In this document: in pieces, positions 1-53,936 of the stretch
Layout: the number at the start of each line of letters is the position of its first letter
Position numbering within the stretch: position 1 is the stretch's first letter
Virus record (IMG/VR): IMGVR_UViG_3300025577_000005
Span: 25,432 to 89,431 of that record
Strand: one strand, 5' to 3'
Length of the DNA: 64,000 bases
Origin: a virus
Translations under genes and position numbers: made by a program
The notes under the pieces: generated by a model
What the model saw: the letters and a program-made list of their open reading frames with translations, nothing else
The model's database searches: none
Told to the model about the DNA's origin: nothing

Positions 1-1274
1 TGAGTCCCCAAACATCCAAATTGTGCATAAAGAGCGATTGTTTTTCTTACCTTTGCTACTCCAGTTACATTATTAACTCTCAGTATATTTCCCATTTCAA
101 ATGGGACTGTAGTATTCTTAATGTCTGCAGTATCTCTAGGTTTATCTACATCTACAATAGAAGTAGATACTTTTTCAATATCGTAACCTTGAACATATGC
201 CTTTCCAGGTGATATTTTTAGTACTGCTAAACTTTCTGATGGAATATTTCCTTGATCTGTTGTTTCATTATTGAAAAAAGTTCCATCACTGCCTAATCTA
301 TCATTTAAAGATTCTTCTACATGTAAATCGAATTGATTTATGGTATAGTTGCCAGATTCGTCAAAAGTTCTCTCCGCAAGATAATCACGAATTCTATTAT
401 ACTCAGTTTTGGTTGTAATTTTTTTAACTTTTCCATTTTTTACTCTAAGCAACTCTACAAAATCAGTATCATTTGAATCTGTTAGAGGTCTTTTTGTAAG
501 TGATAAAGATATTTTTAATCTATCAGATCCTGGTGATGCATAATTTGTAAATCCTTTTGCATTATCAAATAAAGATTCATCTTCTTTTGCATTAATAATA
601 GACTCATCAATTTTTAATCCAACTCTATACGATGGAGTATTTGTATAATAATCTAAAATAATTGTCTGCTTTGAAACTTTTACAAAATAACCCCTTATAA
701 AAAATATTCCTTCTCCAATTGACGACGAAGATCCAATGTCGGTTGAATCTGAACTAATTGAAGACGCAAAAGGTGATCCTGCACTTATAGTCGTATTTCC
801 ATAAACAACATTTTCATTTGCTGATAATAATTCTCCATCAATAAACTGCGAAAATTCAAAATTTTCATCCGATTTTAAATATTTTACATATAGAGTTATA
901 TTATCTACTTCATTACTTTCTGACGGAAAAACTACCTTTTGAATTTTGGCAGTAATTCCAGAAACTTGCCCAGATATAGTTTTTCCAACAAAATTCTTAA
1001 TGTATACTGATAAATCAACTCCAAATTGAGTCGTATTCACTTTAACGGAGTAGAATTGTCCGTCGTATCCAATATTTCCAGGAACAACAATCGATCCTTC
1101 TTTAAAAATATGATCCGCAAAATCTTCTACCTGATTTTGAAGTATAGATTGTAAAGTTGTTAGTTCTCTACTCTGAACAGGATATCCCGGTTTAAATAAT
1201 ACTTTTAAAAAATTTTTCGATGCATCAAAATCATCATAATATGGATTAATGTTTAAATTTGTTTTTTGCGACAT
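1..1274 (-). CDS. DUF4815-type virion structural protein (3' end outside window)
   Basis: The reading frame is open from an ATG at 1274 to the window edge, giving about 424 residues of a longer protein. It begins MSQKTNLNINPYYDDFD and continues KVLFKPGYPVQSRELT, which I recognise as the N-terminus of the DUF4815 family. That family is found in tail or fiber-like structural proteins of T4-like cyanophages. The rest is rich in beta-strand-type sequence. It lies 6 bases after the gp8 stop, in the place where T4 has its baseplate-fiber connector genes (gp9-gp12), so attachment to the baseplate rim is a reasonable inference. The C-terminal, possibly receptor-proximal, part cannot be seen. Confidence 0.8.
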   Translation of the reverse strand, partial: MSQKTNLNINPYYDDFDASKNFLKVLFKPGYPVQSRELTTLQSILQNQVEDFADHIFKEGSIVVPGNIGYDGQFYSVKVNTTQFGVDLSVYIKNFVGKTISGQVSGITAKIQKVVFPSESNEVDNITLYVKYLKSDENFEFSQFIDGELLSANENVVYGNTTISAGSPFASSISSDSTDIGSSSSIGEGIFFIRGYFVKVSKQTIILDYYTNTPSYRVGLKIDESIINAKEDESLFDNAKGFTNYASPGSDRLKISLSLTKRPLTDSNDTDFVELLRVKNGKVKKITTKTEYNRIRDYLAERTFDESGNYTINQFDLHVEESLNDRLGSDGTFFNNETTDQGNIPSESLAVLKISPGKAYVQGYDIEKVSTSIVDVDKPRDTADIKNTTVPFEMGNILRVNNVTGVAKVRKTIALYAQFGCLGT

Positions 1275-1280
1275 TTTTCT

Positions 1281-2858
1281 TTAGAATTCCAGAATAATTT
1301 TGATGTCTTCTTTTTGCCTAGAGTCTCTTACAACAAGAGAACGATTGTCAATGTAAATAACATCTCCCGTGTTTTTATTTATCTCAGGATCAGCAACCCC
1401 TCCTGTGAAAGTTACTCCCAAATTAATTACTTTAGATCCAATTGTAGTTGTAATTCCAGTAAAATTTGTATCAACTGCTGCTGTAAAAGTTCCATCAGAA
1501 ATTGTATTTGTTGTTGAGGCAAAACTTACAACATTTGCTTTATTAGTAACATCATTTCTGTCAGTTTGATCTAAAGTATTGCCAAAGTTTAAAGATCTAT
1601 CTTGATAATATTTCAATACATTAGTCTCAGTATCATATGATGCTATATATCCTCTTGCAGTGCCAATTGAAGTAGACTGCTCAATTTTACCTCCAATAGT
1701 TGGACTATCACTAAAATCTGATGTTAATTTAATTGCTCCTAATGATGAATAATCACTCGCATTATAAAGAGACGTAGAATTATATTTTTCTGGATTTTTT
1801 ATAATTCCTACCTGAGCAAATTTAGTATCTGTCGGAAAATCTCTTGTAGAATCATCAAATCTAGAATATGCAAGAACTTTATCCGAACCCAATTCCTCAT
1901 ATATGTTATATCCATGACCTCTTGATGGGGGTATTATTGGAATTAATTTTGCTGGATTTGAAATAGTGTCTGTTGCTCCATGTCCAAAATCAACAATTCC
2001 AAATGTATATCCACTACCACCAGAAACAACTGTTGTTTTAATAATAGTTCCAGATGTATTAACTTCTATGTTTACTTTTGCTCCTGATCCATCACCTTTA
2101 ATATCGTAAGTACCTGCCGTATAAATACCACTTCCACCGTTCTCAATATACACATATTTTATTTGATTATTATTGATATTAGAATCTCCAGAATCTCTTA
2201 CAGACTGAATTTGAAAATTATCTGACGTTAACCAACCACTCGGAAGAACAATATATTCTGTGGAATCAAATTTGATAATATCGGATGGTGATATAGTAAA
2301 CAAATACTTCCAAAGATATCCATCTCCACTTGTTCCTGCAGAAGATACTTCTAAATCTGTAAATGTTGGTTCGTCCTGAGATGTATTTCCATTTAACTTT
2401 GATGCTCCTCCAATATCACCATGAGATCCATTATAGATGCATATATAAACTTTAAAGTCACTATTGACAATATAATAATTACTATCATAAAGTCTTGCAC
2501 TTTGTGAAATGGGTGCTAAATTTGAAACACTATAATCATGACGATACATTTCATATCTATTATTTGAAACCCAATTAACTTTTTTTACAACTCTTCTAAT
2601 ATTTGAACTATTTAATTTTTTTCCAAATAATGCGGTATTTCTATAATGACTCAAATACTGTTGATTATCAATTGGACTTGGAGGGTTTGATGGGATATTT
2701 CCCCATGACGAAGTTCTGCCAAATCCTACAGGAGTGGATGTTGTTCCGGGATTTGAAAGTCCTAAAAATACATAATAATTATTGTCGGCACTTAAGACAG
2801 ACTCTACAAAATTATTAGCATTAGCAATTCTAAATTGATCTGTTACTATAGCAGACAT
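1281..2858 (-). CDS. gp8: Baseplate wedge protein gp8
   Basis: A 525-residue protein with features of T4 gp8, a wedge subunit on the baseplate rim. It starts MSAIVTDQFRIANANNFVES. It has an internal GDGYLWKYLFTISPSD followed by TEYIVLPSGW, and ends VIYIDNRSLVVRD then KEDIKIILEF. T4 gp8, from memory, has GDGYVWEYLF, EYIVVP and MIYMENR...INILF in the same order. It is longer than T4 gp8 (334 residues) because of a middle insertion containing a GGSGYT motif. I chose the ATG at 2858; an upstream in-frame TTG at 2867 would add three residues. A TATAAATA late-promoter motif lies 20 bases upstream. It follows the giant gene in the order 25-6-giant-8. Confidence 0.88.
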   Translation of the reverse strand: MSAIVTDQFRIANANNFVESVLSADNNYYVFLGLSNPGTTSTPVGFGRTSSWGNIPSNPPSPIDNQQYLSHYRNTALFGKKLNSSNIRRVVKKVNWVSNNRYEMYRHDYSVSNLAPISQSARLYDSNYYIVNSDFKVYICIYNGSHGDIGGASKLNGNTSQDEPTFTDLEVSSAGTSGDGYLWKYLFTISPSDIIKFDSTEYIVLPSGWLTSDNFQIQSVRDSGDSNINNNQIKYVYIENGGSGIYTAGTYDIKGDGSGAKVNIEVNTSGTIIKTTVVSGGSGYTFGIVDFGHGATDTISNPAKLIPIIPPSRGHGYNIYEELGSDKVLAYSRFDDSTRDFPTDTKFAQVGIIKNPEKYNSTSLYNASDYSSLGAIKLTSDFSDSPTIGGKIEQSTSIGTARGYIASYDTETNVLKYYQDRSLNFGNTLDQTDRNDVTNKANVVSFASTTNTISDGTFTAAVDTNFTGITTTIGSKVINLGVTFTGGVADPEINKNTGDVIYIDNRSLVVRDSRQKEDIKIILEF

Positions 2859-2877
2859 ATTACACAATTTTTTTAAA

Positions 2878-2885
2878 TATTTATA
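2878..2885 (-). promoter_or_regulatory. T4-type late promoter (TATAAATA) before gp8
   Basis: The minus strand reads TATAAATA exactly, the T4 late-promoter -10 element recognised by the gp55-type sigma factor. It lies 20 bases before the gp8 start codon, in the short gap after the giant gene. It would let gp8 and the DUF4815 gene be transcribed independently of the giant gene. Confidence 0.75.
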
Positions 2886-2889
2886 TGGG

Positions 2890-5800
2890 TTAATTATCTT
2901 TTGTGTCGGGAAGTGCTCCTGTCAATCTAATACCTTCACCTCTTCTCTGAATTGTTGGGAAAGTTGACAATCCAACATCAACAGTTTTTCCGGAAACCCC
3001 AATAGAAATTGGAGCAGAAGATCTGGTAATTGTAGTAAATAATCCCCAAGAAAATTCACCAACATAATCTCCATCAGTGGAAAGTCCTGTTATATCAGTT
3101 CCAGAGTCTATATTGCAAGTAACGATACCAACAAAATCACCAGAACGGCTCAATTGGTTGATATAGTAAATATTATCTAAGAATGTAGTTCCAATACCAA
3201 CTACAGCAGTATTTGAACTATCCACCGATGTAACACCAAATCCAATCATAGTGTCCTTAACAAATATTGGATACCCAACTTCTAGATCATTTCCAAAATT
3301 TGTTGTTCCCATATCGAGGAAAAACTTAAGTGCTAGTGGATGTCCACCAGATCCGGAAGTAGTTCCTATTCCCGTTATAATTCCAGAAAATCCTTTAATA
3401 AATTTAATTTGATTGAGATTTTCAATATTTGAATCTGGTAAAGGTGTGATTGTTATGGGATTTGTAGTATATCCAAATCCAGGATTTGTTATTGTAGTTC
3501 CAGTAATTACTCCATCAGTGACTGTTCCTGTAGCTTGAGCAGTAGTTCCAATACCAACACCAATTTGGAGTGGTGATTGGAACTTGATATTCACTGTCGA
3601 TCCTACATATCCACTTCCACCATCTACAATTGTGAGTGAGGAAATTTTCCCACCACCAACGGATGCAGTGATATTAGCAGGGGAAGGATCTACTTTACCA
3701 TCAACAATAATGCCTGCTACATTGTTATATGGGCCAGGAGCAGTTAAATCATAACCAAAATTACTTATATTATCAACAAAAATTCTGGAATCAGAAGTTG
3801 TAATATCTTTAATAATTTTTGCGGTTGGATAAATTTGAGCAATCGTAGATTGTCTTGTCTTGTAAACAAACTCTCCATTAATTACTCTATCAGTTTTTTG
3901 TTTTGTCCATGACATTGGTTTATGATTAACTTGATCAATACCTTGATCTACATACAAACTTGTCTCAAATTTGTCTGAAAAAGATATATCAAAAATTGTT
4001 CTTTGATCTTGAGTAATGGTTTCTATAATAGAATCATTTTTGAATACTTTAACATCATCACCCTTTTCTAATGTTGGAAGGACATTATTTACCTGTATGT
4101 CATCTATACCTCTAGTTCCTCTATAGTAGAAAATATCAATTTGATCTTCTGGTTTTGGTGGAACAGTAAATGCGAATGAAGTGCCCCCATCAAATACATA
4201 AGCAACACCAGGATCTTGAATGACACCATTCATAATAACGATCAATACATTTTGGAGTTCTATTACAGAATTTTCAGGTTTTTCGAAACTCAATATTGAT
4301 CCATTATATTTAAGTGGAAATCTTATTCTAACTCCATCTTGAAAATTCTTAACAGAATCAATATAATCAAGTTCTCCAAATTGCCATGAACCAAAATTAT
4401 CACTAAAAGTTTCTAATACTGTAAACTCATATTCCGAAATAGGAGATGTTAAATTTTTATCAACAACAAGTCCGACTGGTTTGAATACATCACCTTTTTT
4501 AAATGAATATCCAGATCTTGTTATAGAGAAATTTTTAACTTCAAAATAAGTTGATCCAATACCTGTTACAGAACTTTCATTAACATCAATATTCAATAAC
4601 AATCCAATTCCAGTATCAGTCGTTGCTCCAACACCGACTCTAGAAACACCCACCACTTCAAGATTTTCATATGTTGGTTCGGAAACAAATATTTCTGGAT
4701 TATTATATCCAGTTCCTCCAGCACTAACATTAAATGATAATGTTCCACCAGCACCAACAGATGCTGTTATTACAGCAACATCTCCAATATGATTATCTTC
4801 ATGAACACTTATCCCAATCGATACTATTCCATTATATCCAGAACCATTATTATCAGAAATTCCAAGTCCAACAGATACAATTGAACCACCAGCACCAACG
4901 ACAGCAGTTACTGCTGCACCAGCAAGAGGTGCGTATCCAAGTCCTCCAGTTGATCCTAAAGAAACAATAAGTCCTCCTCTAGGAATTTGATTTTGATTTA
5001 TATCAGATTCAGAAACCAAAATACTATTAGGATTAATTACATCTGTTCTAATACCACTGAATATAATAGATGATATTCCTGTAGGTGATGTTTGTTCAAT
5101 AATACGGAAATTATTTTCTGGATTATTTTCAGTTGTTGGGGTTTGAAATATTCCATTAATAAATACGAGTCCATTTCCACCAATTGTTCCGACACCACTA
5201 GTATTTGCCCCACCAACAGTGAGTGTAAATGTTCTACCAATTCCATTGAATCCATCAGAAATGTCATCATAAACTTCATTTGTAGTATAATCCTTCCTAA
5301 GAAATACTCTACCAGTAAAGTCTGATGTTTCAAATATTAAATTGTTATTAGTTCTCGTAATATTAGAATTTCCTCTAGGTGCTTTTGTAAAGAAAATACT
5401 ATCATCAACAATATTATAAGATCCTTTGTAAATTCTAGATGATGTACCGTCTGTATGAGATGTTGCAGATGATCCAACAAATCCTCTCTCAACTTCTACT
5501 AGTTTTTGGGATCCTATATTTGTTATTGGTCCAATGTTTGAAGTTCCGAAACCAACATTGATAACTTTCATATATTCATTATCAATTCTCAATATATCGA
5601 GAGGAGATATGGTAGAAATGCCACTTAAAGCAAAAATAGTTGCTCCTATTGAAATGCTTCCACCATTTCCAGATAAATCTTGTGAAATTTTAGTGAAAGC
5701 AATTGGATACTGAACAATATTATCTATAGTGACGATAGCTTTTTCATTTTTCTTTGCCATCGCAAATACGTGAGCATTTCCTTCACCTACAGATGTAAAT

Positions 5801-8800
5801 GTAACTGCCGATCCTGCTTTAGTTGTTGATATCGAAAAACTATCATCAGTATTAACAATCGCAAAAACTTGTGAAGGAAGTTCTTCATTTATAGAACCAT
5901 TTTTATACATCATTGGAGTTGATCCAATACCGATAAAAGTTGATTTTGGAGTGTATATCAATTCTTCATTGTTACTAAAGAAATGACTATCGATTGAAAA
6001 TTTGCCCGTTGATAGATCGAGAGTATCACTATCTGATGGATTAAACGATTTTGCAAAAATTGGAGTAGTATTTGATTTCAATACAAAATCATTCTTATTG
6101 ATTCTACTTCCATTAATTGCTAGATATGAGGAAGTATTTACAGTTTCAATAGAGTTTCCATATAAAAGATTTGGTGCCTGATTAATAAGATCAACCGTAG
6201 TATATAAACATTCACTAAAAGAATTAATTTTTATATCTCCAGTAAAGTTAGAATCTGGATAAAACTTAACTAAAACATCATCTCCGGAATATTCTCCTCC
6301 AAAAGTTCCTACTCCTAGTGGAGTGGACTCTCCACTTGTACTTCCTATTGATAGTAATGAATATTGTTGAATGTAAATATCAGTAGTATCTTGAACCATC
6401 ATAATTTGATGGATTGATTTTGTAGATCCAATACTAACTTCAACTAAAGATCTTGCAGAATCAAAAATGTTTTTATCTAAAATTAGGAACGAGGTAGAAA
6501 CACCAGAAGTTGTTGCAGAAAAACCTGATTCATAAATTGCAGATCTTTCATTACCTGCAGGTTGATTTGGTAAAACGTATCTAAAGGTTCCAACACCAAC
6601 AGAAGTTGTTCCAAATCCAACTATACGTGTATTAATAATTACATCTTCATCAGTATCATTAGAATACTTTAAATTAAATAATCCTGATCCAGAATCTATA
6701 TCTGCTTCGAAAGATCCTATAAGATTACTTGATCTTGAAAAATCTTCCGTATCAAAATAGAATTCTGAAATATTTGTATCAGTTCCGTCATGAGTTACAT
6801 ATAATTCAACAAAGTTCATTTCATTAGTAACTTCTTTATAAACCTGTGCATTAACATGGAAAGAGGTAAACTTGTCAGTTGAGACTCCAATAATATTAGT
6901 TGTATTACCCGTAAGGGACACTTGACTGCGAGAAGTTAAATCAACAAACCCTATTGATATTGTGCCTACTCCAGTAATTTGGTTATTAAATTTTTTGTCA
7001 ATATACTTAATATCATATTCAGTATTGTAAGGATCTTTGGGAGTGAATCTCAAATACTTATCATCAAATTCATCAATTTCTATCGAAAAATCACCATATT
7101 GTTCTCCAACTATTGTAGTAAATCCCGATCCTACATTAACTAAAGATTGTTTTTCTAAAATAGCAATATTATTATTAACTGAATTATTTAAAAATATTAA
7201 ACTTGTTAACTGTATTTCATTTTTACCACTTATATCGGAAACTTTAAATAGGTAATTATTATAAGAATTTCCATCATTAATCTTTAATATGTTTTTATAT
7301 GTAAAAGGTTCATCTTCAAAATTGGAGAATTGATTTGAAATATCATCTATCTTCAAAACAATATTGGATATAGATTCTTGATAATTTGTGAGTCTTTTAT
7401 TTTTTAATTTTAAGAATTTTGATTTATTTTGTAAAATATCTACATCTGTCACAAAAGCAAAATTATTAACTGTATCAACTCTTTTTTCATCAATATAATT
7501 TCTTATAATAGTTGTTGAATCGGAAAAACTAGTAATTCCAACTTTTTCATCTCCATCAGAAATAATCTCCGTATCTGAGAAATTTTTAATGCCAACAGAA
7601 TGAACTAAACTATTAATAGGTGTTCTAATATCATTCCATTGTTGTTTACTCTTAATAGAGTATGAAAGATTTTGATAGTAATCATTATCTTCAAGAACTT
7701 GGACACTTTCACTCAATTTTCCAGTTTCATTTTCCCAACCTTCAGATATTCTATTAGAAAATTTAATATCAAAAATTCCATCATAATTTACTAAGGATTC
7801 TATAGTAGCAACATTTCCTGTAGATTTGCCTACAATTACTTCATTAGAGGAAAGATTGTAAGAACCAAATACTTTGAGTGATCCGGAACTGTCGTAACCA
7901 ATAACCTCAAGATCTCTTTCGATACCATTGGATAATAATTTTTCACCAACTTCAAATTCCGATGGAGATAATGAAATTAAAAAAGTTGGATAATTTGTTT
8001 TGGATATAATAGTTCCAAATGAATCTTGAATTGTTTTTGCAATTCCTGTATTTGTTCCTAATCCAGAAATATTAACTGTAACCTGATCATCATTTATTCC
8101 AGGTGTAAATTTATTTTCATATTTCGTTACTTCAAAAAACTTATATCCATAATCACTGGAATTAAATCCATCTCCGGTAACACTAAACTTTTCAATTCCC
8201 TCTATAAAAACTTTTTCGCCTGAAGTAAAAACATCTGTAGAGAACCCTGCAAGTGGTGTTGTTATAATACATGTAAAAATGCCAGTATTTGATGATTGAA
8301 CTTCTTTAATACTAACTCCATTAGTATTATCAACAGTAAAAAGTTCTGCCGATTGATCGGATATTCCTTTGGGTAAAATATCAACAATTAAACTGGTGAT
8401 TGAACTGCCAGTAATTTCTGGTATTATTAATCCACTATTCAATTCTGTTCTTGTATCATTATCTACAACAACAATTTGTGGTGGTGAAGTATATCCAGCA
8501 CCCCCAGAAGTTATTGTCACAATACCAATTGTATTCGAATCTTTTAATTTAATTTTTGGAGATATAGAAACGTGTGGTCTTAAAGTTATATCCGAAGAAT
8601 ATTCAAAGTTTTCATTAATTATTCTTGTTTCTTCAATTTTTCCAATAGTATCAGAATTTAAAGAAACAGATAAATTTGTTCCACTTATTGTGTTTACATT
8701 TGAAAGTGATGGTAATTTTTTATATTCAGATCCACTAGATATAATATTAATTTTATTTACTGGACCAGAAGATGATGTTGAAGTTGTTGTATATTCTAAA

Positions 8801-11800
8801 TTATCGCATTCTGAAGAAATATAATTTAATTTTTCTGGAGATTCTTGTAAAGAAATTTGAAAGCTAGTTGATCCTATACCAAAAACATCATAAGTTTGAT
8901 TATAAACACTATCGATAAATAAAATTTCGGAGAAATTATTTACATTTCTATCAGAGGAACTTATATATCCAGATTTTTCTAAAGAATAATAAAGTCTTTC
9001 TGGCAATCCGGAACTATAATTAATGGTGAATGAAGCATTGGTTGATATTCCTATTGTTCCAACACCAACTGTACTAAAAGTTTCTGTAGAACCTGTTGAT
9101 ATAAACTCACTATTAAAATCTTGATCGTAATAAAGTTTAAACTCATATCCAGATAAAGAAGAATCCGATAAATCAAATACTAAATTATTATTTGCAATTG
9201 TTTGTATTTGTGGATTAATTGGTGATATTGATTGTGAAGGTCCTCCTGTAGAAGCAAAACTTACGACTATTGGAGGATTTTTTTGTGAATTAATATAAGT
9301 TTCACAGAATTTTATAGTATTTTCGTCAGTTTTATAAATGTAGTATTCTCTCTCAGTATTACCATCTTCGTAAAAAACTTTATCTCCTGTTATTAATCCA
9401 TGTTCCGAAATAGTAATTTGATTAGTTATAGTATTGATTCCTGTAGAGTTAAACCCAATAGGATTAATCACAATACTATCAATTTTGGATTTGTAAATAA
9501 CATTAACTGCTATTGAAGTTCCAATACCCACTGAAAGGTTTGGTTTCACATTCATAGTGATTGAATCACCCTTAACTAATCCATGCGAATAAGAAGTTGA
9601 TATTGAAACAGTTGAGGTAATTTTCTCAATTTTTCCAAGTTTTTGTATGTTATTAGTATCGAAATAATAATTATCAACATTATCACCTCCTGTTATGAAG
9701 AAAACTTCATCGGAAGTGAGAGAAGTTTTTATCCCAATAGTGCTTGGAGACTTATTGACAGCATATACTGGTTCTGTTGTTGGAAGATTAAATGGGGTTC
9801 CTGTAGGAGATGTTGAAATTGAAATTGCATTATTGCCATTTTGACTAAATGTAAGTTTTTGATTAGTTTGAAGAAAATGATCTTTAATACTAATTCTTTG
9901 TGTAGGAATAGATCCTGATATTACCTCCTGACCAAAAGAATATGATACATTATGGCCAGTTCCTGCTGTTGTACCAAAACCAACCGATTCTTGTGGATTG
10001 AAGTACATTCTATTATTAACTTTAGACTCAAAATAATCTACGTTTTGATCAATTGTAAATGTTTTTGATTTAAATGATACTGCTGTTCCAACGGTATGTG
10101 CAATCCCAGAATTACCTCTTTTTACTCTAAAAATACTTTTATCTGAATATATGTTTAAAACTTCCAAAGTTTCAGTTCCAATTCCAATACTACTACCAGC
10201 AGAAACTCCTGCAGGAATCTGTGATACATATATTTCTGTTGTAGCTGCTCCGGAAGATGCAACTTCTGCCGTTAATCCTGCATTTGAAATAAATGGAATA
10301 TTAACTTTAAAGGAATCATTCAATACAGAAAGATTTGAAGTACTAAATCCAGATATTAAAACATTATCATTGTTTGACAACGTATGAAAAGGAGAAATTG
10401 TTATATTTACTTTATTATCTCCACTCCAAGTAAATACGGCATCATTATAAACTTCATGTAAAGTATCAATTTTATCAACTTTTCTTCCTTTTAAAGATGA
10501 AACATTGGCATAAATTCCTCCACCGTCAGTATTATCATTATTGAATTTTAATAAATCGTTTACTTTATAATTATCTCCATTATTAATAACAGAAATATTG
10601 GAAACTGATCCTTTACTAATAGATTCAACTATTACTCTTTGTTTTTTAATTGCATCATTTTCAATAATAAAATCATTACTAGCGTTCTTTTCTAAAATTT
10701 TATACCCTAAAGTATTTCTAGAAAGAGATGAATTATTAAAATCAAATTTTTGATCTAAACTTTGATTTTCATCAATAGTATTTGATCTAAAAGAATCTCC
10801 AATAAAATATGGGAATTGTGGTTCTCCTGTAATTCCATCTACAATTGCATGGTATGCATAAACACCATTTGGAAAATCTTCTGTCTTTGCAAATCTTCCA
10901 TTATTTTTGTCTAAATCTCCATTTTGATTATTATAAACATAATCTTCGACAAAAAATCCTAAAGGAAAATCAGATATAGATGGTCTGTCATAAACATTGG
11001 ATATATTTGTAGTATAACCAGATGTCATGGTTTTAATACCAGAACTTACATTCTCCGGATCTACAGATGAATATGGTCCGTAAATAGGATTCCCATCATA
11101 TGCCCATCCAATAATGTTAGACAAAGTTGTACCAGTGTCATTAAATGAGGATTGTAAATCTCCAAAATATGCAGTTACTGAGTATGATAATTCATCATTT
11201 ATATCTTTTAATATTTCAGTTTGTTGTGTAGGTAATTTTTGAACTTGATTAACTGTAAGTTCTCTTATAGATGCGTCTAAAATTTCATTATTACCAGAAG
11301 AGATGACTTTAATTACAGTAGAAGTAGAATATCCTATTCCTGCATTAATAATCTTAATATCAGTAATTTTTTTATCAGAAATTACTGCTCTTAATTTGGC
11401 ACCACTTCCCGATTCAGTTGGATCAGAAACAATCAAATCTGGAATTGAAGAATATTCAAGTCCTCCAAATTGTATATTTGTTTCATTGATAGATCCATTA
11501 ACTATGATAGGAGTTATTTGAGCATCTCTACCAGTTTTAACCGTTAGAGAAGGTTTTTTCTCAAAATTGAGAATATTTGATCCATATCCAGTTCCTGGTT
11601 CATAAACGTAAATTTGTTCTATAGATCCTTTAACAACTGGTGTTGCTTCTATGGATTGAATTTGTGTCGATGTCCCGATACCAACTGCAGTAAACTCAAT
11701 ATTTGCTCTTATGTTTGGATATTTAAACTCTTGGAAACCATTTCCAGTACTATCCAGTTCTTCATAATTTTGTGTTTCATAATTCGTAATATTTGTTCCT

Positions 11801-14800
11801 CCAATACCAGCATCACATAATCTAAAAGAATTTTCATCAAGTTTTAAGACATAGTATTGATTTGCAGTTGTAAGTCCTGTTATTCCACTTGTTTCATAAT
11901 TATATTCTATAATTTCACCACTGTTGAATCCATGATTATTAAAGTTTATTGTATTTTTTGTGGTAGAAATTCCTGCAGGTTTTACTAAGAGATTTCTATT
12001 CGTAAATGATCCTCCTTCTATTACTTTTATTTCCGAAATAGTATTATTTACAGATTCGGTTAAAAATTTATGAGTTCCACTTAATGAAGTTGTTGCAAAA
12101 GAAATTTGATTAGTTTCATTTGAATAATCATCAAAATTATTAAATAATCTTATTGTTGTGTTATTATCTACTTTTGCAAAATAATTTGCATTATTAGATA
12201 ATTGAGATACTCCTATTCCAATACTAACACTTTCATTACCATTATTTCTATAAGTAATTTTTTGTCCATTCGAAAAATTGTGATTATTTAAAAATGTTAA
12301 CTGATTTGTAGATGCACTTATGCCTCCACCTTGTGCAATTTCTCTTGCATCAAATAATACTTCTCTTCTTCTTTTAACCAATATTGGTTCGAAAGATCCT
12401 CCAGATCCATTTCCACCAATAATATTAACTGACAATACTTGTTCAATGTCAAAATTTTGTTTATCTACATCAATATCCGTTATTGTCCCACTTAAAACCG
12501 GTCGAACTAAAGATGTTATTCCAATACCAGCAGATACTTGTATATCTGGAGGATTGATAACATCAAAATTAATTCCACCGTTTAAGATTTTAATATTTTC
12601 AATTGGACCAGAGTAAATTTTATCTAAAGTTTTATAATTAGAAATTTCAACACCATTAATTAACATTCCAATTGATCCTGGAATTGTTTTTTGCCCAATT
12701 CCATTTTCAATATTGGGATTGAGAGTGAATTTTTTTAGAATTTTTTGGGGATTTAATGTTTCTGATTTTTGAGAATATAAAATAAAATTGTGAGTTTCTA
12801 ATGTTGAGGTTGGTGATTTGAATTGAACACTATTTGCATCAGAATTAATAAAGGAAAGAGAATTATAAAGTTTTATTTTTTTAGTATCAGATAAAACCTT
12901 AACATAATATGAACCTTCTTCTAACCCATCTAGAGGTCTTCCAGATGGTCTATATTGAATTCTTTCTCCACTTATGAACGGAACAGGATTATCAAAGAAA
13001 ATAGTAGTGTATAATCCAGTATTAGAATCAAGATCAATAATACTTCCAGAAGAAGACGAAATTGATATTGAATTAATTTCTTTTGTTATCTGATAAGCAT
13101 ATGAATTTGAAAATCCCCTTCCCCAGGATGGAAGTGAGTTTGAAGCTATGTATGCAAAGTTATCATCATCAACATACATATTCTGAACATCAGAAATAAT
13201 ACTATTATTTTGATATTTAAAATTAACATTAGCACTATTTGCTTTATTAATTTTTCTTCTTAACTTTATATTTTGTTCTAAATTTGGAGAAAAATTACTT
13301 AAATTTGATATAGAAACTGAATTTGATGTAATATTTGCATTTACGTATGGCAAGTCTGTAGTATTTGTAGGATATATTACATTATTTGTTTTTTCATCTA
13401 TAAATTCTACAAAATCACCCTTTTTTAATTGTGATCTATCAACAGAAGTTTTTAATATGACACCAGTTGGATTTTGACCACCAATAAAACTATCAATTTT
13501 TATTGAAGAACTGGTATTATAGATCCAAGAATTTGCAAAAATTTCCCTATACGTTTTATTTTGTTCTGGATTTTCAATTAAAGTTCCAATACTCTTAACT
13601 GTTAAAATTTGATCTTCATCAACAGAAATTAAATCTGATTTTTGAATAAAATCTGAAAGAACACCATTCAATTTAAGAACAACTTTTTTCGATGTATCCC
13701 CATTTTCATAAGAAAAATATGTATTATCCGAAAAAATGTCTTCCGTAATAGTAATATTATCAACAATTCCAGAACATCCTAAAAACTGATTAACACTTTT
13801 ATCAGAATATGTAATAGTATTATTTCCAGAATATATTGTTCCTGTCTGTTCAAATCCAATTGTAGAATCTACAGATATTACAGAAGCACCAATACTAACA
13901 TTCTCTAAAACTTTTGAATTGGGAGTAATTGTAAAATTGCCCTGAACATTACTATTATCGCCATATCCAACAAATAATCCTATTTTAAAATATTGCTTTT
14001 GTCCTCTTGTAAATATTTCAACTGAAGATATTGAAGCATTTGTTGCAGAATCTGTTGATTTAGTTAATGTCTGTCCTACTATTTTTGTAATATCTCCACT
14101 AATAGATTCGGCGACACATATTTCCTTTCTAATGAAGTTTGCATCTGATGGTTTTATTAAATATTCTTCAAGATTAATTACTTTTGGAGTTTCTCCGTAT
14201 AATACATTAAATAATATTCTAAAGGAATCATCAGTGCCTTTTGATTCGTAAAAAGATCTTGATTCTTTTATAAAGTTTCCGGCATTTATTTTAGGGTCAA
14301 AGACTCTATTTTCAAATCCAGGAGTATATGTATACTTTAATTTTTTATAAAATTCCTTTAAAAATAAAGAACTTAAATTATATACTGTAGAATTTGAACT
14401 ATGAGAATTAGTAGTTGTATCTGAAAATATTAACTCTTCTTCATTTAAATCTTGATGATAACTAGTAATTCCACTAAAACCACGAATACATCCAGTAAAA
14501 GTATTTGTAGTGAGTCCAGTATATGTGATTATCTCATCGTCAATCTTCAACAATCCATATTCTTGAGGAAATCCTTTTGTATTAGGAACACTAATTATGG
14601 TACTATCAGTATTGATATCAAAAGATAGAGTTGTTGATCCTACAACTACTTCTGGAATTAAGTTATCTAATTTTAAATATTGATCCAGATTTTCTGCAAT
14701 GTCAACAGGACCTCCCTGATATTCCTGAGAAATATAATATTGCTTTAAAAAATCTACTGCCTTTGGACTTTCACCTAGGACATATTCCGGTAATTGATTG

Positions 14801-14850
14801 GAAATTATGTCCTGAATCTTGATTCTAGATTCAATTCCAGTTTGTATCAT
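2890..14850 (-). CDS. Giant baseplate/tail structural protein in the gp7 position (3986 aa, YHYH domain)
   Basis: One uninterrupted frame encodes 3986 residues, about four times T4 gp7 (1032 aa), whose map position between gp6 and gp8 it occupies. The N-terminus (PEYVLGESPKAVDFLKQYY, then GGPVDIAENLDQYLKLDNL) looks like a folded attachment domain. The rest is a long series of beta-rich units with recurring motifs of the type GG-x-GY-xx-PP-x-I/V and VGIGT. Around residues 1240-1355 lies a YHYH-like domain: GWAYDGNPIYGPYSS, then LDKNNGRF, PNGVYAYHAI and FPYFIG. Very long ORFs here are known in T4-like cyanophages. The gene starts 1 base after gp6 ends. A structural wedge or rim role is inferred from position; homology to gp7 itself is not visible. 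Confidence 0.85.
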   Translation of the reverse strand: MIQTGIESRIKIQDIISNQLPEYVLGESPKAVDFLKQYYISQEYQGGPVDIAENLDQYLKLDNLIPEVVVGSTTLSFDINTDSTIISVPNTKGFPQEYGLLKIDDEIITYTGLTTNTFTGCIRGFSGITSYHQDLNEEELIFSDTTTNSHSSNSTVYNLSSLFLKEFYKKLKYTYTPGFENRVFDPKINAGNFIKESRSFYESKGTDDSFRILFNVLYGETPKVINLEEYLIKPSDANFIRKEICVAESISGDITKIVGQTLTKSTDSATNASISSVEIFTRGQKQYFKIGLFVGYGDNSNVQGNFTITPNSKVLENVSIGASVISVDSTIGFEQTGTIYSGNNTITYSDKSVNQFLGCSGIVDNITITEDIFSDNTYFSYENGDTSKKVVLKLNGVLSDFIQKSDLISVDEDQILTVKSIGTLIENPEQNKTYREIFANSWIYNTSSSIKIDSFIGGQNPTGVILKTSVDRSQLKKGDFVEFIDEKTNNVIYPTNTTDLPYVNANITSNSVSISNLSNFSPNLEQNIKLRRKINKANSANVNFKYQNNSIISDVQNMYVDDDNFAYIASNSLPSWGRGFSNSYAYQITKEINSISISSSSGSIIDLDSNTGLYTTIFFDNPVPFISGERIQYRPSGRPLDGLEEGSYYVKVLSDTKKIKLYNSLSFINSDANSVQFKSPTSTLETHNFILYSQKSETLNPQKILKKFTLNPNIENGIGQKTIPGSIGMLINGVEISNYKTLDKIYSGPIENIKILNGGINFDVINPPDIQVSAGIGITSLVRPVLSGTITDIDVDKQNFDIEQVLSVNIIGGNGSGGSFEPILVKRRREVLFDAREIAQGGGISASTNQLTFLNNHNFSNGQKITYRNNGNESVSIGIGVSQLSNNANYFAKVDNNTTIRLFNNFDDYSNETNQISFATTSLSGTHKFLTESVNNTISEIKVIEGGSFTNRNLLVKPAGISTTKNTINFNNHGFNSGEIIEYNYETSGITGLTTANQYYVLKLDENSFRLCDAGIGGTNITNYETQNYEELDSTGNGFQEFKYPNIRANIEFTAVGIGTSTQIQSIEATPVVKGSIEQIYVYEPGTGYGSNILNFEKKPSLTVKTGRDAQITPIIVNGSINETNIQFGGLEYSSIPDLIVSDPTESGSGAKLRAVISDKKITDIKIINAGIGYSTSTVIKVISSGNNEILDASIRELTVNQVQKLPTQQTEILKDINDELSYSVTAYFGDLQSSFNDTGTTLSNIIGWAYDGNPIYGPYSSVDPENVSSGIKTMTSGYTTNISNVYDRPSISDFPLGFFVEDYVYNNQNGDLDKNNGRFAKTEDFPNGVYAYHAIVDGITGEPQFPYFIGDSFRSNTIDENQSLDQKFDFNNSSLSRNTLGYKILEKNASNDFIIENDAIKKQRVIVESISKGSVSNISVINNGDNYKVNDLLKFNNDNTDGGGIYANVSSLKGRKVDKIDTLHEVYNDAVFTWSGDNKVNITISPFHTLSNNDNVLISGFSTSNLSVLNDSFKVNIPFISNAGLTAEVASSGAATTEIYVSQIPAGVSAGSSIGIGTETLEVLNIYSDKSIFRVKRGNSGIAHTVGTAVSFKSKTFTIDQNVDYFESKVNNRMYFNPQESVGFGTTAGTGHNVSYSFGQEVISGSIPTQRISIKDHFLQTNQKLTFSQNGNNAISISTSPTGTPFNLPTTEPVYAVNKSPSTIGIKTSLTSDEVFFITGGDNVDNYYFDTNNIQKLGKIEKITSTVSISTSYSHGLVKGDSITMNVKPNLSVGIGTSIAVNVIYKSKIDSIVINPIGFNSTGINTITNQITISEHGLITGDKVFYEDGNTEREYYIYKTDENTIKFCETYINSQKNPPIVVSFASTGGPSQSISPINPQIQTIANNNLVFDLSDSSLSGYEFKLYYDQDFNSEFISTGSTETFSTVGVGTIGISTNASFTINYSSGLPERLYYSLEKSGYISSSDRNVNNFSEILFIDSVYNQTYDVFGIGSTSFQISLQESPEKLNYISSECDNLEYTTTSTSSSGPVNKINIISSGSEYKKLPSLSNVNTISGTNLSVSLNSDTIGKIEETRIINENFEYSSDITLRPHVSISPKIKLKDSNTIGIVTITSGGAGYTSPPQIVVVDNDTRTELNSGLIIPEITGSSITSLIVDILPKGISDQSAELFTVDNTNGVSIKEVQSSNTGIFTCIITTPLAGFSTDVFTSGEKVFIEGIEKFSVTGDGFNSSDYGYKFFEVTKYENKFTPGINDDQVTVNISGLGTNTGIAKTIQDSFGTIISKTNYPTFLISLSPSEFEVGEKLLSNGIERDLEVIGYDSSGSLKVFGSYNLSSNEVIVGKSTGNVATIESLVNYDGIFDIKFSNRISEGWENETGKLSESVQVLEDNDYYQNLSYSIKSKQQWNDIRTPINSLVHSVGIKNFSDTEIISDGDEKVGITSFSDSTTIIRNYIDEKRVDTVNNFAFVTDVDILQNKSKFLKLKNKRLTNYQESISNIVLKIDDISNQFSNFEDEPFTYKNILKINDGNSYNNYLFKVSDISGKNEIQLTSLIFLNNSVNNNIAILEKQSLVNVGSGFTTIVGEQYGDFSIEIDEFDDKYLRFTPKDPYNTEYDIKYIDKKFNNQITGVGTISIGFVDLTSRSQVSLTGNTTNIIGVSTDKFTSFHVNAQVYKEVTNEMNFVELYVTHDGTDTNISEFYFDTEDFSRSSNLIGSFEADIDSGSGLFNLKYSNDTDEDVIINTRIVGFGTTSVGVGTFRYVLPNQPAGNERSAIYESGFSATTSGVSTSFLILDKNIFDSARSLVEVSIGSTKSIHQIMMVQDTTDIYIQQYSLLSIGSTSGESTPLGVGTFGGEYSGDDVLVKFYPDSNFTGDIKINSFSECLYTTVDLINQAPNLLYGNSIETVNTSSYLAINGSRINKNDFVLKSNTTPIFAKSFNPSDSDTLDLSTGKFSIDSHFFSNNEELIYTPKSTFIGIGSTPMMYKNGSINEELPSQVFAIVNTDDSFSISTTKAGSAVTFTSVGEGNAHVFAMAKKNEKAIVTIDNIVQYPIAFTKISQDLSGNGGSISIGATIFALSGISTISPLDILRIDNEYMKVINVGFGTSNIGPITNIGSQKLVEVERGFVGSSATSHTDGTSSRIYKGSYNIVDDSIFFTKAPRGNSNITRTNNNLIFETSDFTGRVFLRKDYTTNEVYDDISDGFNGIGRTFTLTVGGANTSGVGTIGGNGLVFINGIFQTPTTENNPENNFRIIEQTSPTGISSIIFSGIRTDVINPNSILVSESDINQNQIPRGGLIVSLGSTGGLGYAPLAGAAVTAVVGAGGSIVSVGLGISDNNGSGYNGIVSIGISVHEDNHIGDVAVITASVGAGGTLSFNVSAGGTGYNNPEIFVSEPTYENLEVVGVSRVGVGATTDTGIGLLLNIDVNESSVTGIGSTYFEVKNFSITRSGYSFKKGDVFKPVGLVVDKNLTSPISEYEFTVLETFSDNFGSWQFGELDYIDSVKNFQDGVRIRFPLKYNGSILSFEKPENSVIELQNVLIVIMNGVIQDPGVAYVFDGGTSFAFTVPPKPEDQIDIFYYRGTRGIDDIQVNNVLPTLEKGDDVKVFKNDSIIETITQDQRTIFDISFSDKFETSLYVDQGIDQVNHKPMSWTKQKTDRVINGEFVYKTRQSTIAQIYPTAKIIKDITTSDSRIFVDNISNFGYDLTAPGPYNNVAGIIVDGKVDPSPANITASVGGGKISSLTIVDGGSGYVGSTVNIKFQSPLQIGVGIGTTAQATGTVTDGVITGTTITNPGFGYTTNPITITPLPDSNIENLNQIKFIKGFSGIITGIGTTSGSGGHPLALKFFLDMGTTNFGNDLEVGYPIFVKDTMIGFGVTSVDSSNTAVVGIGTTFLDNIYYINQLSRSGDFVGIVTCNIDSGTDITGLSTDGDYVGEFSWGLFTTITRSSAPISIGVSGKTVDVGLSTFPTIQRRGEGIRLTGALPDTKDN

Positions 14851-17412: not shown

Positions 17413-18087
17413 TTATTTTTCACCCTCTTCGGATGAATTTTCACGTTCTTGTGCAGTCTTCCAAAAATATTCGTCCTCTCTACCCATTCCAAGTCGTTCA
17501 AATCCATTTTCAACTTGATAATATTGAGTCGAAACCTTAAAATCAGGCATTTTTGGTTCGACAGGTGTCAGACTATTGTCAAAAATACGTAATCTATTGT
17601 TTGGATATAGTGCATACTGTCCATTCTCAAGTTCAATCAGGTTATGAGACTTGTGTTCGGCAGGATTTTCACTGGTCGCCCAATCAACATAGTCCGGATC
17701 ATGATGATAGTTATCAATAGTACAGACATACGTACCTTTTACATTACCAAAGTCCCTTGTATAACATTCAAAGTCCATTGAACCAATAAGTTTCTTATCC
17801 ACCGAGACAACCCCGTAGTCCATACAATTCCAAAACTGTAGGTTTGGTAGGTTCATGTCCGGACTTGGTGTCTCAGGGTCCGCCACAAAGGCACTGATAG
17901 GCAATTTGTCATACATTGCCGCATATTCTGGTAGATAGGTCTCAAAATAAAAAGCACGTCCAGGAATCGATTTAACCGATACCCAAACGCCCTTTACAAA
18001 TTCACCATGTCCACTTTGATGATCCGTTAGATATTCCTTACGAACCCATACTTCCTGTGATGGAAGATTTGCAATCAAACATGCCAT
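17413..18087 (-). CDS. Conserved T4-like cyanophage protein, unknown function (224 aa)
   Basis: The protein begins MACLIANLPSQEVWVRKEYL and contains many aromatic and proline-rich stretches, for example GRAFYFETYLPEYAAMYDK and NLQFWNCMDYGVVSVDKKL. The C-terminus is acidic (RENSSEEGEK). There is no signal peptide or membrane span. Proteins of this appearance sit near the wedge genes in cyanophages, but no function is known to me. It lies upstream of gp25 and downstream of the glycosyltransferase-like gene in the same orientation. No catalytic motif was seen. Confidence 0.75.
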   Translation of the reverse strand: MACLIANLPSQEVWVRKEYLTDHQSGHGEFVKGVWVSVKSIPGRAFYFETYLPEYAAMYDKLPISAFVADPETPSPDMNLPNLQFWNCMDYGVVSVDKKLIGSMDFECYTRDFGNVKGTYVCTIDNYHHDPDYVDWATSENPAEHKSHNLIELENGQYALYPNNRLRIFDNSLTPVEPKMPDFKVSTQYYQVENGFERLGMGREDEYFWKTAQERENSSEEGEK

Positions 18088-43098: not shown

Positions 43099-45339
43099 TT
43101 ATACTTGAAGTATCATTACAGAGTAACTTTTGGTGCTAGCACTAGAACTAAAAGTAATTTTAAATCCAGCAGTTGTTTTATTCACTTCAGGAACAGTAAA
43201 TGTTGATGTTCCGGTATTAGAAACAATTACCGTATAGTTTGCTGATTGTAATGCAGTGCTAAAACTAAAGTTTGCATCATTAGTGCTGTTTGCTGGAGCA
43301 TCCAAATTATATCCGTCAGCAGGAGTTGGTACTGCACCACTAACAATAGTTCCAAATGCAACAACAGGACTTAAGTTTCTAAATGATGATGCAGTATTTC
43401 TAATCTGGATGTTATCTCTTGAGGAGTTATATACTAATCCTCCAGGAACAAGTCCATTTGGAGTAACTTTTCTTGAAAGTACTGTCCCAAATCCAGATGG
43501 ATTCTGCCATAAATTACTAACAACACTTATCTGAGTTTCTGTTAATGATGGAGGAATGAAATAACTATTCATCGATGTAGAAGCAGTTCCTACATCAAAT
43601 ACAGACCTTGCAAAGTAAGTATTGACACCAACTGATGATAAGTATTCTGATTCACTTCCACCTGGTATATGATTTTTTGAAATTATTCCAAGATTAGTTG
43701 ATCCAAATCCTACGGTAGCAACTCCAACTGTAGGAACTATTAGAAAATTAGATGAAATAAATCCTGCTGCACCACTATCAACTTGGAAATCCCCATAAGA
43801 CAAGAATGGAATTGTTGAACCTAAATCACTTGGAATTGTTCTAGGATCTGATTGAAAAGATCCGTCAATATTTGTTGTAATTCCAAGTGTCTGCTTGGAT
43901 ATGAATCCTTCTGTAGAATATGCTACTCCAAATATTTGAAGTTTTGGATTAATACCTCCAGTAGCAAAACCAACGTTTGTTGTTGTTCCTATACCAACGT
44001 CATTTCCAACATAAACATCAGAAGATACTGTTATTCCTCCTCCAACTTGAATATCTTGCACACTCAACTTATTAAATGTGCTAATTCCACTTAAAGTATT
44101 AAAATTTTGACTATCTGAAACTGGTATAGGACTACCATCACCAAGAGTTACTTGTTCTGAACCTGTTCCGACTGTAAGTATACCTACAATTTGAGAATTT
44201 CCAGTAATAAGAGCATCACCACCAACTTCTAAATTATTTTCTAATGCAGCACCACCACGATTTACACCAACTTTTCCATCATAAGTGACTTCAAACTGTG
44301 TTGAATTGTCATAGTTGACATTGAAACTTTCTGTTGTGCCTGTACCAGTCCCTTCATGAAGATTGATACTGACTCCACCAACATCGTAGTTATTAATATC
44401 CAAACGTCCTGTGCCTGGTGTATAGAGTAACTGGGCACTACTATTACCTGCACCTACAGATTCACCAATACTTACAGATGAGTTTGTTGTACTCGTAACA
44501 ACAAGACTTGCTGCAGCAGATTTATTGATTCTTAAATCATCAAAGGTTCCAATACCAACATCAGCATTAGTGATGTTTGCATTCGTGATTGTTCCTGTGG
44601 TAATTGTTCCGGTAGTAATCGTTGATGTTGTTGATTCTGTAGGACCAACAAACTTACTCGCAGTTACAATACCACTTGTATTTGCACTGAAACTAGATGA
44701 CAGTTCAGATGGTAAACTAACATTACCTGTTCCATCGAAAGATATAGTGCTTGATTCTAAATCACCAGTGATATTAAAATCTCTCGCAGTTTCAAGTTTA
44801 GTTGCAGATGCAGCTACACCAGTTACATTACCAGTTACATTACCTGTTAAATTTCCAACAAAACTAGTTGCAGTAACTATACCACTTGCAAGAATATTTC
44901 CACCATCAAAACCCGCACCAGTTGCTGTGGCAGGGTCTCCTCCTATTTGTAAATTATATACTGGATTTGTGGTTCCAATACCAATCGATCTAAATGTATG
45001 TAATCCTACTCCTTGTGAAATCCAACCAGTTGTTGAAATTGCGAAAATATTTTGAAGACCGGAGGCATCTCCAACAAATTTTGTTGCTGTGATTACTCCA
45101 CTACTAGGATCTATATTGACTGGTCCCACTTTTAGATCATTATAAAAGTTTGCAGTCTGTGCAACTCCTAAGGTTATTGTTGTTGTAAATCCAGTAATTT
45201 TTGCATTTCCAATCAAATCGAGAGATTCAGTAGGGATAGATGTTCCAATCCCCACCAGACCATTCGAATTTACAATGAAATTATCATTATCAACCTGAAC
45301 ACCATTCCTAAAATTAAATGACTTCCTAATATTTGCCAT
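43099..45339 (-). CDS. Tail fiber protein (746 aa)
   Basis: Starts MANIRKSFNFRNGVQVDNDN, then FIVNSNGLVGIGTSIPTESL. Repeated beta-strand units of the type VGIGT...LxxxGNAxITG (for example DALITGNSQIVGILTVG, IGIGTTNPVYNLQIGG) run through the protein and suggest a long trimeric beta-helix fiber. It is smaller than the upstream fiber and lacks the S74 chaperone. The late promoter GATAAATA lies 19 bases upstream. Likely part of the long tail fibers that contact the host. Confidence 0.8.
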   Translation of the reverse strand: MANIRKSFNFRNGVQVDNDNFIVNSNGLVGIGTSIPTESLDLIGNAKITGFTTTITLGVAQTANFYNDLKVGPVNIDPSSGVITATKFVGDASGLQNIFAISTTGWISQGVGLHTFRSIGIGTTNPVYNLQIGGDPATATGAGFDGGNILASGIVTATSFVGNLTGNVTGNVTGVAASATKLETARDFNITGDLESSTISFDGTGNVSLPSELSSSFSANTSGIVTASKFVGPTESTTSTITTGTITTGTITNANITNADVGIGTFDDLRINKSAAASLVVTSTTNSSVSIGESVGAGNSSAQLLYTPGTGRLDINNYDVGGVSINLHEGTGTGTTESFNVNYDNSTQFEVTYDGKVGVNRGGAALENNLEVGGDALITGNSQIVGILTVGTGSEQVTLGDGSPIPVSDSQNFNTLSGISTFNKLSVQDIQVGGGITVSSDVYVGNDVGIGTTTNVGFATGGINPKLQIFGVAYSTEGFISKQTLGITTNIDGSFQSDPRTIPSDLGSTIPFLSYGDFQVDSGAAGFISSNFLIVPTVGVATVGFGSTNLGIISKNHIPGGSESEYLSSVGVNTYFARSVFDVGTASTSMNSYFIPPSLTETQISVVSNLWQNPSGFGTVLSRKVTPNGLVPGGLVYNSSRDNIQIRNTASSFRNLSPVVAFGTIVSGAVPTPADGYNLDAPANSTNDANFSFSTALQSANYTVIVSNTGTSTFTVPEVNKTTAGFKITFSSSASTKSYSVMILQV

Positions 45340-45356
45340 TATTATAAGCTTTAGAG

Positions 45357-53120: not shown

Positions 53121-53936
53121 TCAATTCTCCAATTCAGATACTCGTTGTTTCAATTCTTCAATTTGTTTTTGTTGTTCTTTCATCCCATCAATCAAATGAG
53201 CAACTAAATTTTCATAAAGAACTCTTTTATAAATTCGTCCCTTTTCTTTTCCATCTTTGACACTATTTACCATCGTTTTATAAACGACTTCTGGCACAAC
53301 TTCCTCAACTTCTTGTGCAATCAATCCAACCATATGTGGATATTTTCCGGCAAGATCTGGAACAATTGTTTCATCCCAGTCAAAGGTCACTGGATTCAAC
53401 TTCATAATCTTATCCAGACCATTTGTCAATGGTTCTATATTCTTCTTGAGTCTTATATCGGATGTATGTGGTCCAGTTGAAACAAATGAACCATTATACA
53501 TCCAAAATCCATTTAGATTTCCAAATGGACTATTTTGAAAAATGCTTGCTCCATTACTCTTAATAATAGGTGCTGTAGCTCCCCAATCTGGAGTAACCGA
53601 AGATTTGAGACCATTTAATTCGGAAAAAATGGCACTATAATCAACAGTCAATGGTCCAATTGAAACATCAGTTCCAAGTCTCACATCTGTTCCTAATGTA
53701 TTCCATACACCAGTATGAACATCAAGACCAATAGAATTGAAACTTAATGGTGATGTTAATGATGGTCCTGCTACAAGTGCAGCACTAAAAGGAACTGTTA
53801 ATGCACCTTGTCCAAAGTGTCCCTTATGTGCCGCAATTGATCCCGGTTCCCAAAAACCTTTTGGTATATTTAATGCACTTCCTAATATAGGATGGATTAC
53901 ATCTACAGTTCCACTATCTAAACTTTGAAAAGCCAT
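53121..53936 (-). CDS. Short fiber with S74 chaperone domain (271 aa)
   Basis: The last 120 residues are a peptidase_S74/intramolecular chaperone domain: SDIRLKKNIEPLTNGLDKIM, then VTFDWDETIVPDLAGKYPHM, VGLIAQEVEEVVPEVV and YENLVAHLIDGMKEQQKQI with a C-terminal coiled coil. The N-terminal 150 residues are beta-rich (LGSALNIPKGFWEPGSIAAH). Such proteins form trimeric spikes or fibers. It starts where the beta-helix gene ends (ATG overlap at 53936). Confidence 0.85.
   Translation of the reverse strand: MAFQSLDSGTVDVIHPILGSALNIPKGFWEPGSIAAHKGHFGQGALTVPFSAALVAGPSLTSPLSFNSIGLDVHTGVWNTLGTDVRLGTDVSIGPLTVDYSAIFSELNGLKSSVTPDWGATAPIIKSNGASIFQNSPFGNLNGFWMYNGSFVSTGPHTSDIRLKKNIEPLTNGLDKIMKLNPVTFDWDETIVPDLAGKYPHMVGLIAQEVEEVVPEVVYKTMVNSVKDGKEKGRIYKRVLYENLVAHLIDGMKEQQKQIEELKQRVSELEN

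Follow-up and report, generated by a model that had tools for sequence, protein, structure and literature searches.

The 3986-residue protein encoded at the gp7 position of this virus is, with a probability of roughly 0.7, the cyanophage orthologue of T4 gp7 that joins two gp6 chains in the (gp6)2-gp7 baseplate wedge, built of an N-terminal anchor, a peripheral beta limb and a structural or ligand-binding half of a YHYH domain. In the ocean, T4-like cyanophages belong to the most abundant viruses. The giant family itself (PHROG 2885) was already known; new are the homology and the position of the wedge module, the failure of a hydrolase prediction for the YHYH domain in its own published example and the pairing of that example with an intact copy. 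The N-terminal wedge module tells which end of the giant is anchored, and its position is a starting point for the fitting of cryo-EM maps.

Gene neighbourhood and the giant gp7 family

The window, i.e. the whole analysed stretch of 64,000 nucleotides, has a GC content of 34.6 % and is part of an 89,431-base IMG/VR virus record, itself a fragment. The giant is encoded by one open reading frame with an ATG start and zero internal stops (Table 1). Pfam and PHROG matches to the neighbouring genes gave the order gp25, gp6, giant ORF, gp8 and then a VrlC-type gene. The earlier note had described a protein of giant size in the gp7 position with an embedded YHYH-type domain, and gene order, ORF length and a PF14240 match bear this out. 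An identical synteny gp25-gp6-X-gp8 was present in P-SSM2, P-HM1, ACG-2014f, S-SRM01, S-CAM7 and S-SKS1, and the succession of gp8 and VrlC also in P-HM1, S-SRM01 and S-RIM14. Beside gp25, at positions 17413-18087, the window encodes a protein of a PHROG 'ferredoxin' family; a ferredoxin-annotated gene occupies the equivalent place in S-SKS1.

Table 1. Features of the baseplate gene cluster and of the giant protein (positions in the window)
Feature	Position	Strand	Basis
Giant gp7-position baseplate wedge protein, 3986 aa	2890..14850	-	Translation, PHROG 2885, orthologues at equivalent place
gp25 baseplate wedge/sheath initiator, 133 aa	16746..17147	-	PF04965
gp6 baseplate wedge subunit, 630 aa	14852..16744	-	PF21379
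gp8 baseplate wedge subunit, 528 aa	1281..2867	-	PF09215
Start of VrlC-type protein (DUF4815), cut by window edge	3..1274	-	Pfam/PHROG, gene order
N-terminal wedge module, residues ~10-307, homologous to T4 gp7 ~644-821	13930..14823	-	hhalign, PDB profile search, Foldseek
Predicted N-terminal helices, residues 12-43, putative core-bundle helices	14722..14817	-	AlphaFold2 (pLDDT ~30-53), XM1 gp17 analogy
Inserted beta domain in wedge module, residues ~70-150 (DDEIITYTG...RGFSG)	14401..14643	-	AlphaFold2 secondary structure
Signature FYESKGTDDSFRILFNVLYGE, residues 193-224, best-matched part in T4 gp7	14179..14274	-	Sequence comparison
G-x-GY beta unit 1, residues 1066-1118	11497..11655	-	Unit also in gp8 266-306 and hub protein 608-640
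G-x-GY beta unit 2, residues 1151-1209, directly before YHYH half-domain	11224..11400	-	Repeat scan
C-terminal half of YHYH domain, residues 1238-1336, without GH/YHYH histidine cluster	10843..11139	-	PF14240
Conserved C-terminal region, residues 3001-3700, ~67-70 % identity among relatives	3751..5850	-	Alignment
Only clearly variable stretch, residues 3701-3800, 38 % identity, indels	3451..3750	-	Alignment

The PHROG 2885 profile ('baseplate wedge subunit') matched residues 2-3340 plus a second stretch with 3481 bits. With the first 1000 residues as tblastn query about 460 phage records were matched, all of them marine or cyanobacterial viruses; the best matches were S-SKS1 (52.8 % identity), S-SRM01 (49.3 %) and gp7 of P-SSM2 (43.6 %). 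An NCBIfam search of the giant protein and a phmmer search of the whole chain against the PDB gave no match. In cyanophages, the relatives are often annotated as gp7 or 'baseplate wedge initiator'. Like the window protein, gp7 of P-SSM2 and of other Kyanoviridae lies between gp6 and gp8 and is homologous over the length of the chain, with 29-55 % identity to P-SSM2 gp7 in blocks of 250 residues and the YHYH half-domain at an equal relative place in P-SSM2-type gp7. Annotated orthologues comprise 5195 aa in P-SSM2 (YP_214343.1), 4446 in P-HM1, 4225 in ACG-2014f, 4314 in S-CAM7, 3895 in S-SRM01, 3048 plus 175 in S-PM2, approximately 6480 in Syn19 and 6198 in S-RIM14; the 3986 aa of the window protein thus compare with 3048-6619 aa in other Kyanoviridae. 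As the orthologues at the equivalent place are giants as well, this size is ordinary for the group, and the window protein is a member of a known giant family, not an isolated oddity. The closest named relative, S-SKS1 (Llyrvirus), shares the gene order; unlike in the window, its gp7 gene is split by frame breaks and annotated only in part, the region NC_020851 125000-144000 holding four frames in the public record, some of them unannotated.

The great length could also indicate a polyprotein that is cut into several baseplate subunits, as might the 3048-aa ORF of S-PM2 that is followed by the separate 175-aa ORF and the split frames in S-SKS1 and three further records (L003, L031, L041). The frame runs uninterrupted from end to end, however, in 41 IMG/VR loci with approximately 3.7-4.5k aa, some of them near-identical, and the sites of the breaks differ from record to record, several falling in A-runs. 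Since their positions are unrelated between records, the breaks were rejected as natural splits into subunits. The frames of the relatives, continuous with few breaks at unrelated places, gave no sign of the processing into independent subunits that the earlier note had considered. In virions of a relative, 71 peptides were assigned to a single 724-kDa product of 6619 aa, S-SZBM1_208 (PMC9146016), an observation with which cleavage would still be compatible. Taken together, a polyprotein is highly improbable. For the protein at the gp7 place in S-CREM2, ORF122, 91 peptides were obtained from virions (PMC10665884).

Wedge module and homology to T4 gp7

In T4 and XM1, gp7 and two gp6 chains form the (gp6)2-gp7 bundle of the wedge, gp25 starts the sheath, and gp7 moves when the baseplate turns from dome to star (PMC3004832, PMC10457771). 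An alignment of residues 1-330 of 16 diverse family members was compared by hhalign with an alignment of seven Straboviridae gp7. Residues 193-307 matched T4 gp7 727-821 with Prob 95.2, P=2.8e-8 and a score of 70.9, while the best score among 30 column-shuffled controls was 22.1 and other-family controls (cyanophage gp6, gp8 and VrlC) reached at most 24.8 against the gp7 alignment. A weak second match, collinear with the first, joined residues 11-38 to T4 gp7 644-671. The search of the N-terminal profile against all PDB sequences had as best match the gp7 of 9f4a (E=0.0052). An AlphaFold2 model of residues 1-600 (pLDDT 70) led in Foldseek to 9f4a_A0 (1031 aa; the gp7 chain of 9f4a has 1032 aa) as top match with E=1.3e-4 and to the T4 baseplate, 5iv5, in third place with E=1.7e-3; the TM-scores were low (~0.1), the fold match is therefore supporting evidence only. 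The homology of residues ~193-307 to T4 gp7 727-821 gives the giant a gp7 ancestry in its wedge module. A unit related to the beta domain inserted in this module recurs at residues 317-372.

T4 gp7 (1032 aa, Straboviridae) shares with the giant the gene order 6-7-8 and the wedge module. Using the full-length cyanophage alignment, T4 gp7 was matched only at 191-307 versus 725-821 (P=2.4e-6); hhalign detected no T4 counterpart of the remaining ~3,680 residues, and residues 1-640 of T4 gp7 stayed unmatched. A gp7 profile match over the whole length, considered in the earlier note, was hence obtained essentially in full against cyanophage gp7s, but against T4 gp7 only for one module of ~115 residues and a weak collinear second stretch. 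In the alignments, the order of parts is the reverse of that in T4: the anchoring module is N-terminal in the cyanophages and in the C-terminal half in T4. An N-terminally anchored T4 gp7 orthologue has been described in XM1, gp17 with 242 aa, of which residues 1-48 lie in the core bundle (PMC10457771). As described, XM1 gp17 resembles the giant in a helix-first N-terminal wedge module with a segment inserted in domain I (PMC10457771); it lacks the giant C-terminal body. T4 gp7 has been stated to be absent and replaced by VrlC (PMC7029224). VrlC was rejected as gp7 replacement: since it is encoded by a separate gene after gp8 and has no similarity to gp7, the published replacement is unsupported, and the wedge module corrects the claim of a missing gp7.

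Searches revealed no structure of a Kyanoviridae baseplate. Most likely, the giant acts as wedge anchor with a long, beta-rich peripheral limb. By analogy to T4, XM1 and related structures, each baseplate would contain six giants, and the N-terminal module of each would insert into a helical bundle with two gp6 chains, beside gp25. The remainder would be a series of domains, most of them beta, that takes the place of the T4 gp7 body and may point outward as a long peripheral limb. This limb would probably brace gp8, VrlC and fibre-attachment proteins and could pass the contraction signal between the periphery and the core. The YHYH half-domain would be one of its beta domains, descended from secreted YHYH proteins.

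The YHYH half-domain

PF14240 (YHYH) was the sole Pfam domain found in the giant. With E=2.8e-21 and 76.8 bits, compared to a cut-off of 25, the match is not due to chance. It covers profile positions 88-181 of 193; the domain is thus incomplete in the window protein, the first half being gone. The profile span is 77-184 in P-SSM2 gp7 and 48-184 in S-RIM14 gp7, and extends from 2-3 to 186-193 in cellular proteins. The motifs pointed out earlier were recovered: GWAYDGNPIYGPYSS from ~1248, NNGR, PNGVYAYHAI, and FPYFIG at ~1346-1351. Kept in the half-domain are GWAYDGNPIYG, ED(Y), LDxxNGR, PxGxYAY and FPYFIG, including the aspartates. The C-terminal half is shared with bacterial PF14240 proteins (e.g. 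L112, L124, L163) and with the phage protein AOO14286.1, the common motifs being II/LGxAxDGxPIYG, EDY, LDxxNGR, PxGxYAY and (F/Y)PY; in contrast to the giant, these proteins have the full domain with GH...YHYH...HSP histidines. In a tree of the C-terminal half, gp7 copies stood apart from cellular ones, but its resolution is poor: over 117 columns, 11 of the 99 inner branches were starred.

The histidines were compared between 65 YHYH ORFs collected from cellular genome contigs and 65 distinct phage copies. In the cellular set, the aligned columns contained histidine in 95 % (GH), 95 % and 97 % (YHYH) and 94 % (HSP) of the ORFs. An HxH motif within 160 residues upstream of the YHYH half was found in none of the 65 phage copies, and the corresponding stretch of the window protein has no histidine at all. 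At the variable position of LDx?NG, phage copies have N (47), Y (11) or H (7), and at that of YAY? they have F (34), Y (23) or H (6). P-SSM2 kept the HSP histidine, which is lost in the clade of the window, where (L/V)SN replaces HSP. Large gp7-type ORFs that likewise lack the histidine cluster were present on contigs of metagenome-assembled genomes labelled Euryarchaeota, Flavobacteriales, Planctomycetaceae etc. (L094-L108, L115, L116); these contigs probably belong to cyanophages and were binned with bacteria or archaea.

A survey of jumbo phages regarded YHYH as a tail-associated, Zn-dependent hydrolase on the basis of a histidine triad plus an aspartate, with AOO14285.1 as an example (PMC7824862). 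AOO14285.1 is the gp7-position giant of cyanophage S-RIM14. Applied to the window protein, the embedded domain would be an active enzyme that helps to breach the cell envelope, and its place in a baseplate protein and the conserved aspartates of DG, ED and LD would fit. Yet the GH and YHYH histidines are missing in the window protein and in all relatives checked, together with the first half of the domain; HSP is (L/V)SN in the clade of the window, the last histidine (YAYH) is F or Y in most relatives, and the published example is also without the histidine cluster, which its neighbour AOO14286.1 has. Due to the loss of the histidine ligands, the hydrolase prediction does not hold in the gp7 branch, to which the published example itself belongs, and activity in this branch is extremely unlikely. 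With its N-terminal half and the histidine cluster gone, the half-domain most likely has a structural or ligand-binding role and is not a metal-dependent hydrolase. A search of the YHYH profile against the PDB gave insignificant matches only (best E=0.12). The AlphaFold2 model of residues 1060-1480 had a mean pLDDT of 57, and its Foldseek search gave nothing below E=0.001, thus a fold cannot be named for this half.

With the published example lacking the proposed ligands, the neighbouring intact copy is the protein to assay. AOO14286.1 (573 aa; KX349303 80408-82129), encoded next to gp7 in S-RIM14, contains a YHYH domain that is nearly complete (profile 7-184) and has all the histidines, followed by an alpha/beta-hydrolase-like stretch (LLHGAGGNG, GSSNGG); YHYH was the only Pfam match in this protein. 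From its motifs, it appears the better candidate enzyme than the gp7 copy. Its first half was matched in 183 phage records, with at least 80 % of it covered in 72. A third S-RIM14 gene, AOO14288.1, carries another partial YHYH copy, and in the record of the window, a fragment, the gp7 copy was the only one found. Tentatively, a YHYH domain of a secreted enzyme may have been captured into gp7 and lost its catalytic half, to persist in the baseplate as a conserved element with a structural or glycan-binding role, while some of these phages retain an intact YHYH enzyme in a separate gene next to gp7.

Beta-rich body, conservation and other tail genes

The suggestion that the remainder of the chain consists of beta units held for the modelled parts of the body (residues 241-600 and, within 1060-1480, the parts predicted with confidence), but AlphaFold2 also predicted helices at 12-58 and 159-230. 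Besides the two units before the YHYH half-domain, G-x-GY units were located at residues 2097-2156, 3283-3343 and 3776-3799, and such units are also found in gp8 and the hub protein (54539-57076). One repeat running throughout the chain was rejected, regular-expression and self-HMM scans having yielded few recognisable copies per beta unit.

Among 33 relatives, identity at residues 1-200 was about 0.75; the middle had 0.52-0.65, residues 3101-3500 had 0.70 and residues 3701-3800 had 0.38. In the common loci, identity to the window was 73 % for gp6 and 67 % for gp8, and for the giant 70 % at residues 1-400, about 56 % at 401-3000 and 67 % at 3001-3700. Because it evolves like gp6 and gp8, the giant resembles a scaffold more than a variable receptor tip. 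The reach towards the receptor proposed in the earlier note found no support in this pattern, with its single variable spot, although a binding site may lie within residues 3701-3800.

A long C-terminal part that reaches the receptor as a fibre-like arm would agree with the large size, the beta-rich content and the one variable stretch. Authors working on pelagimyophages considered YHYH-bearing structural proteins as putative receptor-binding proteins (PMC7029224), and tail fibres are bound by the gp7-like part of contractile injection systems (PMC8894135). Against such an arm stand the even identity along the chain, with the last 1,000 residues among the best conserved, similar to gp6 and gp8, and the separate tail-fibre-type proteins encoded at 43099-50606 of the window. 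It is unlikely, and the wedge anchor with a bracing peripheral limb is the preferred reading.

Further tail-related genes were observed in the window. The proteins encoded at 45357-50606 and 53121-53936 both end with a C-terminal Peptidase_S74 intramolecular chaperone domain; the small one, with 271 aa, looks like a separate short fibre or spike. The hub/tail-lysozyme-type protein at 54539-57076 carries a cell-wall hydrolase domain (PF07486) at its N-terminus and a GTGTGG stretch of low complexity. Three adjacent ORFs follow at 58940-60460, 60461-62164 and 62169-63842. By eye, the first two have a similar N-terminal module, SPI..S..KVKES...LLEF.GL...GI.VNA, and differ in their enzyme-like C-termini, which are amidase-like in the first and M23-peptidase-like with GSHLHYE in the second.
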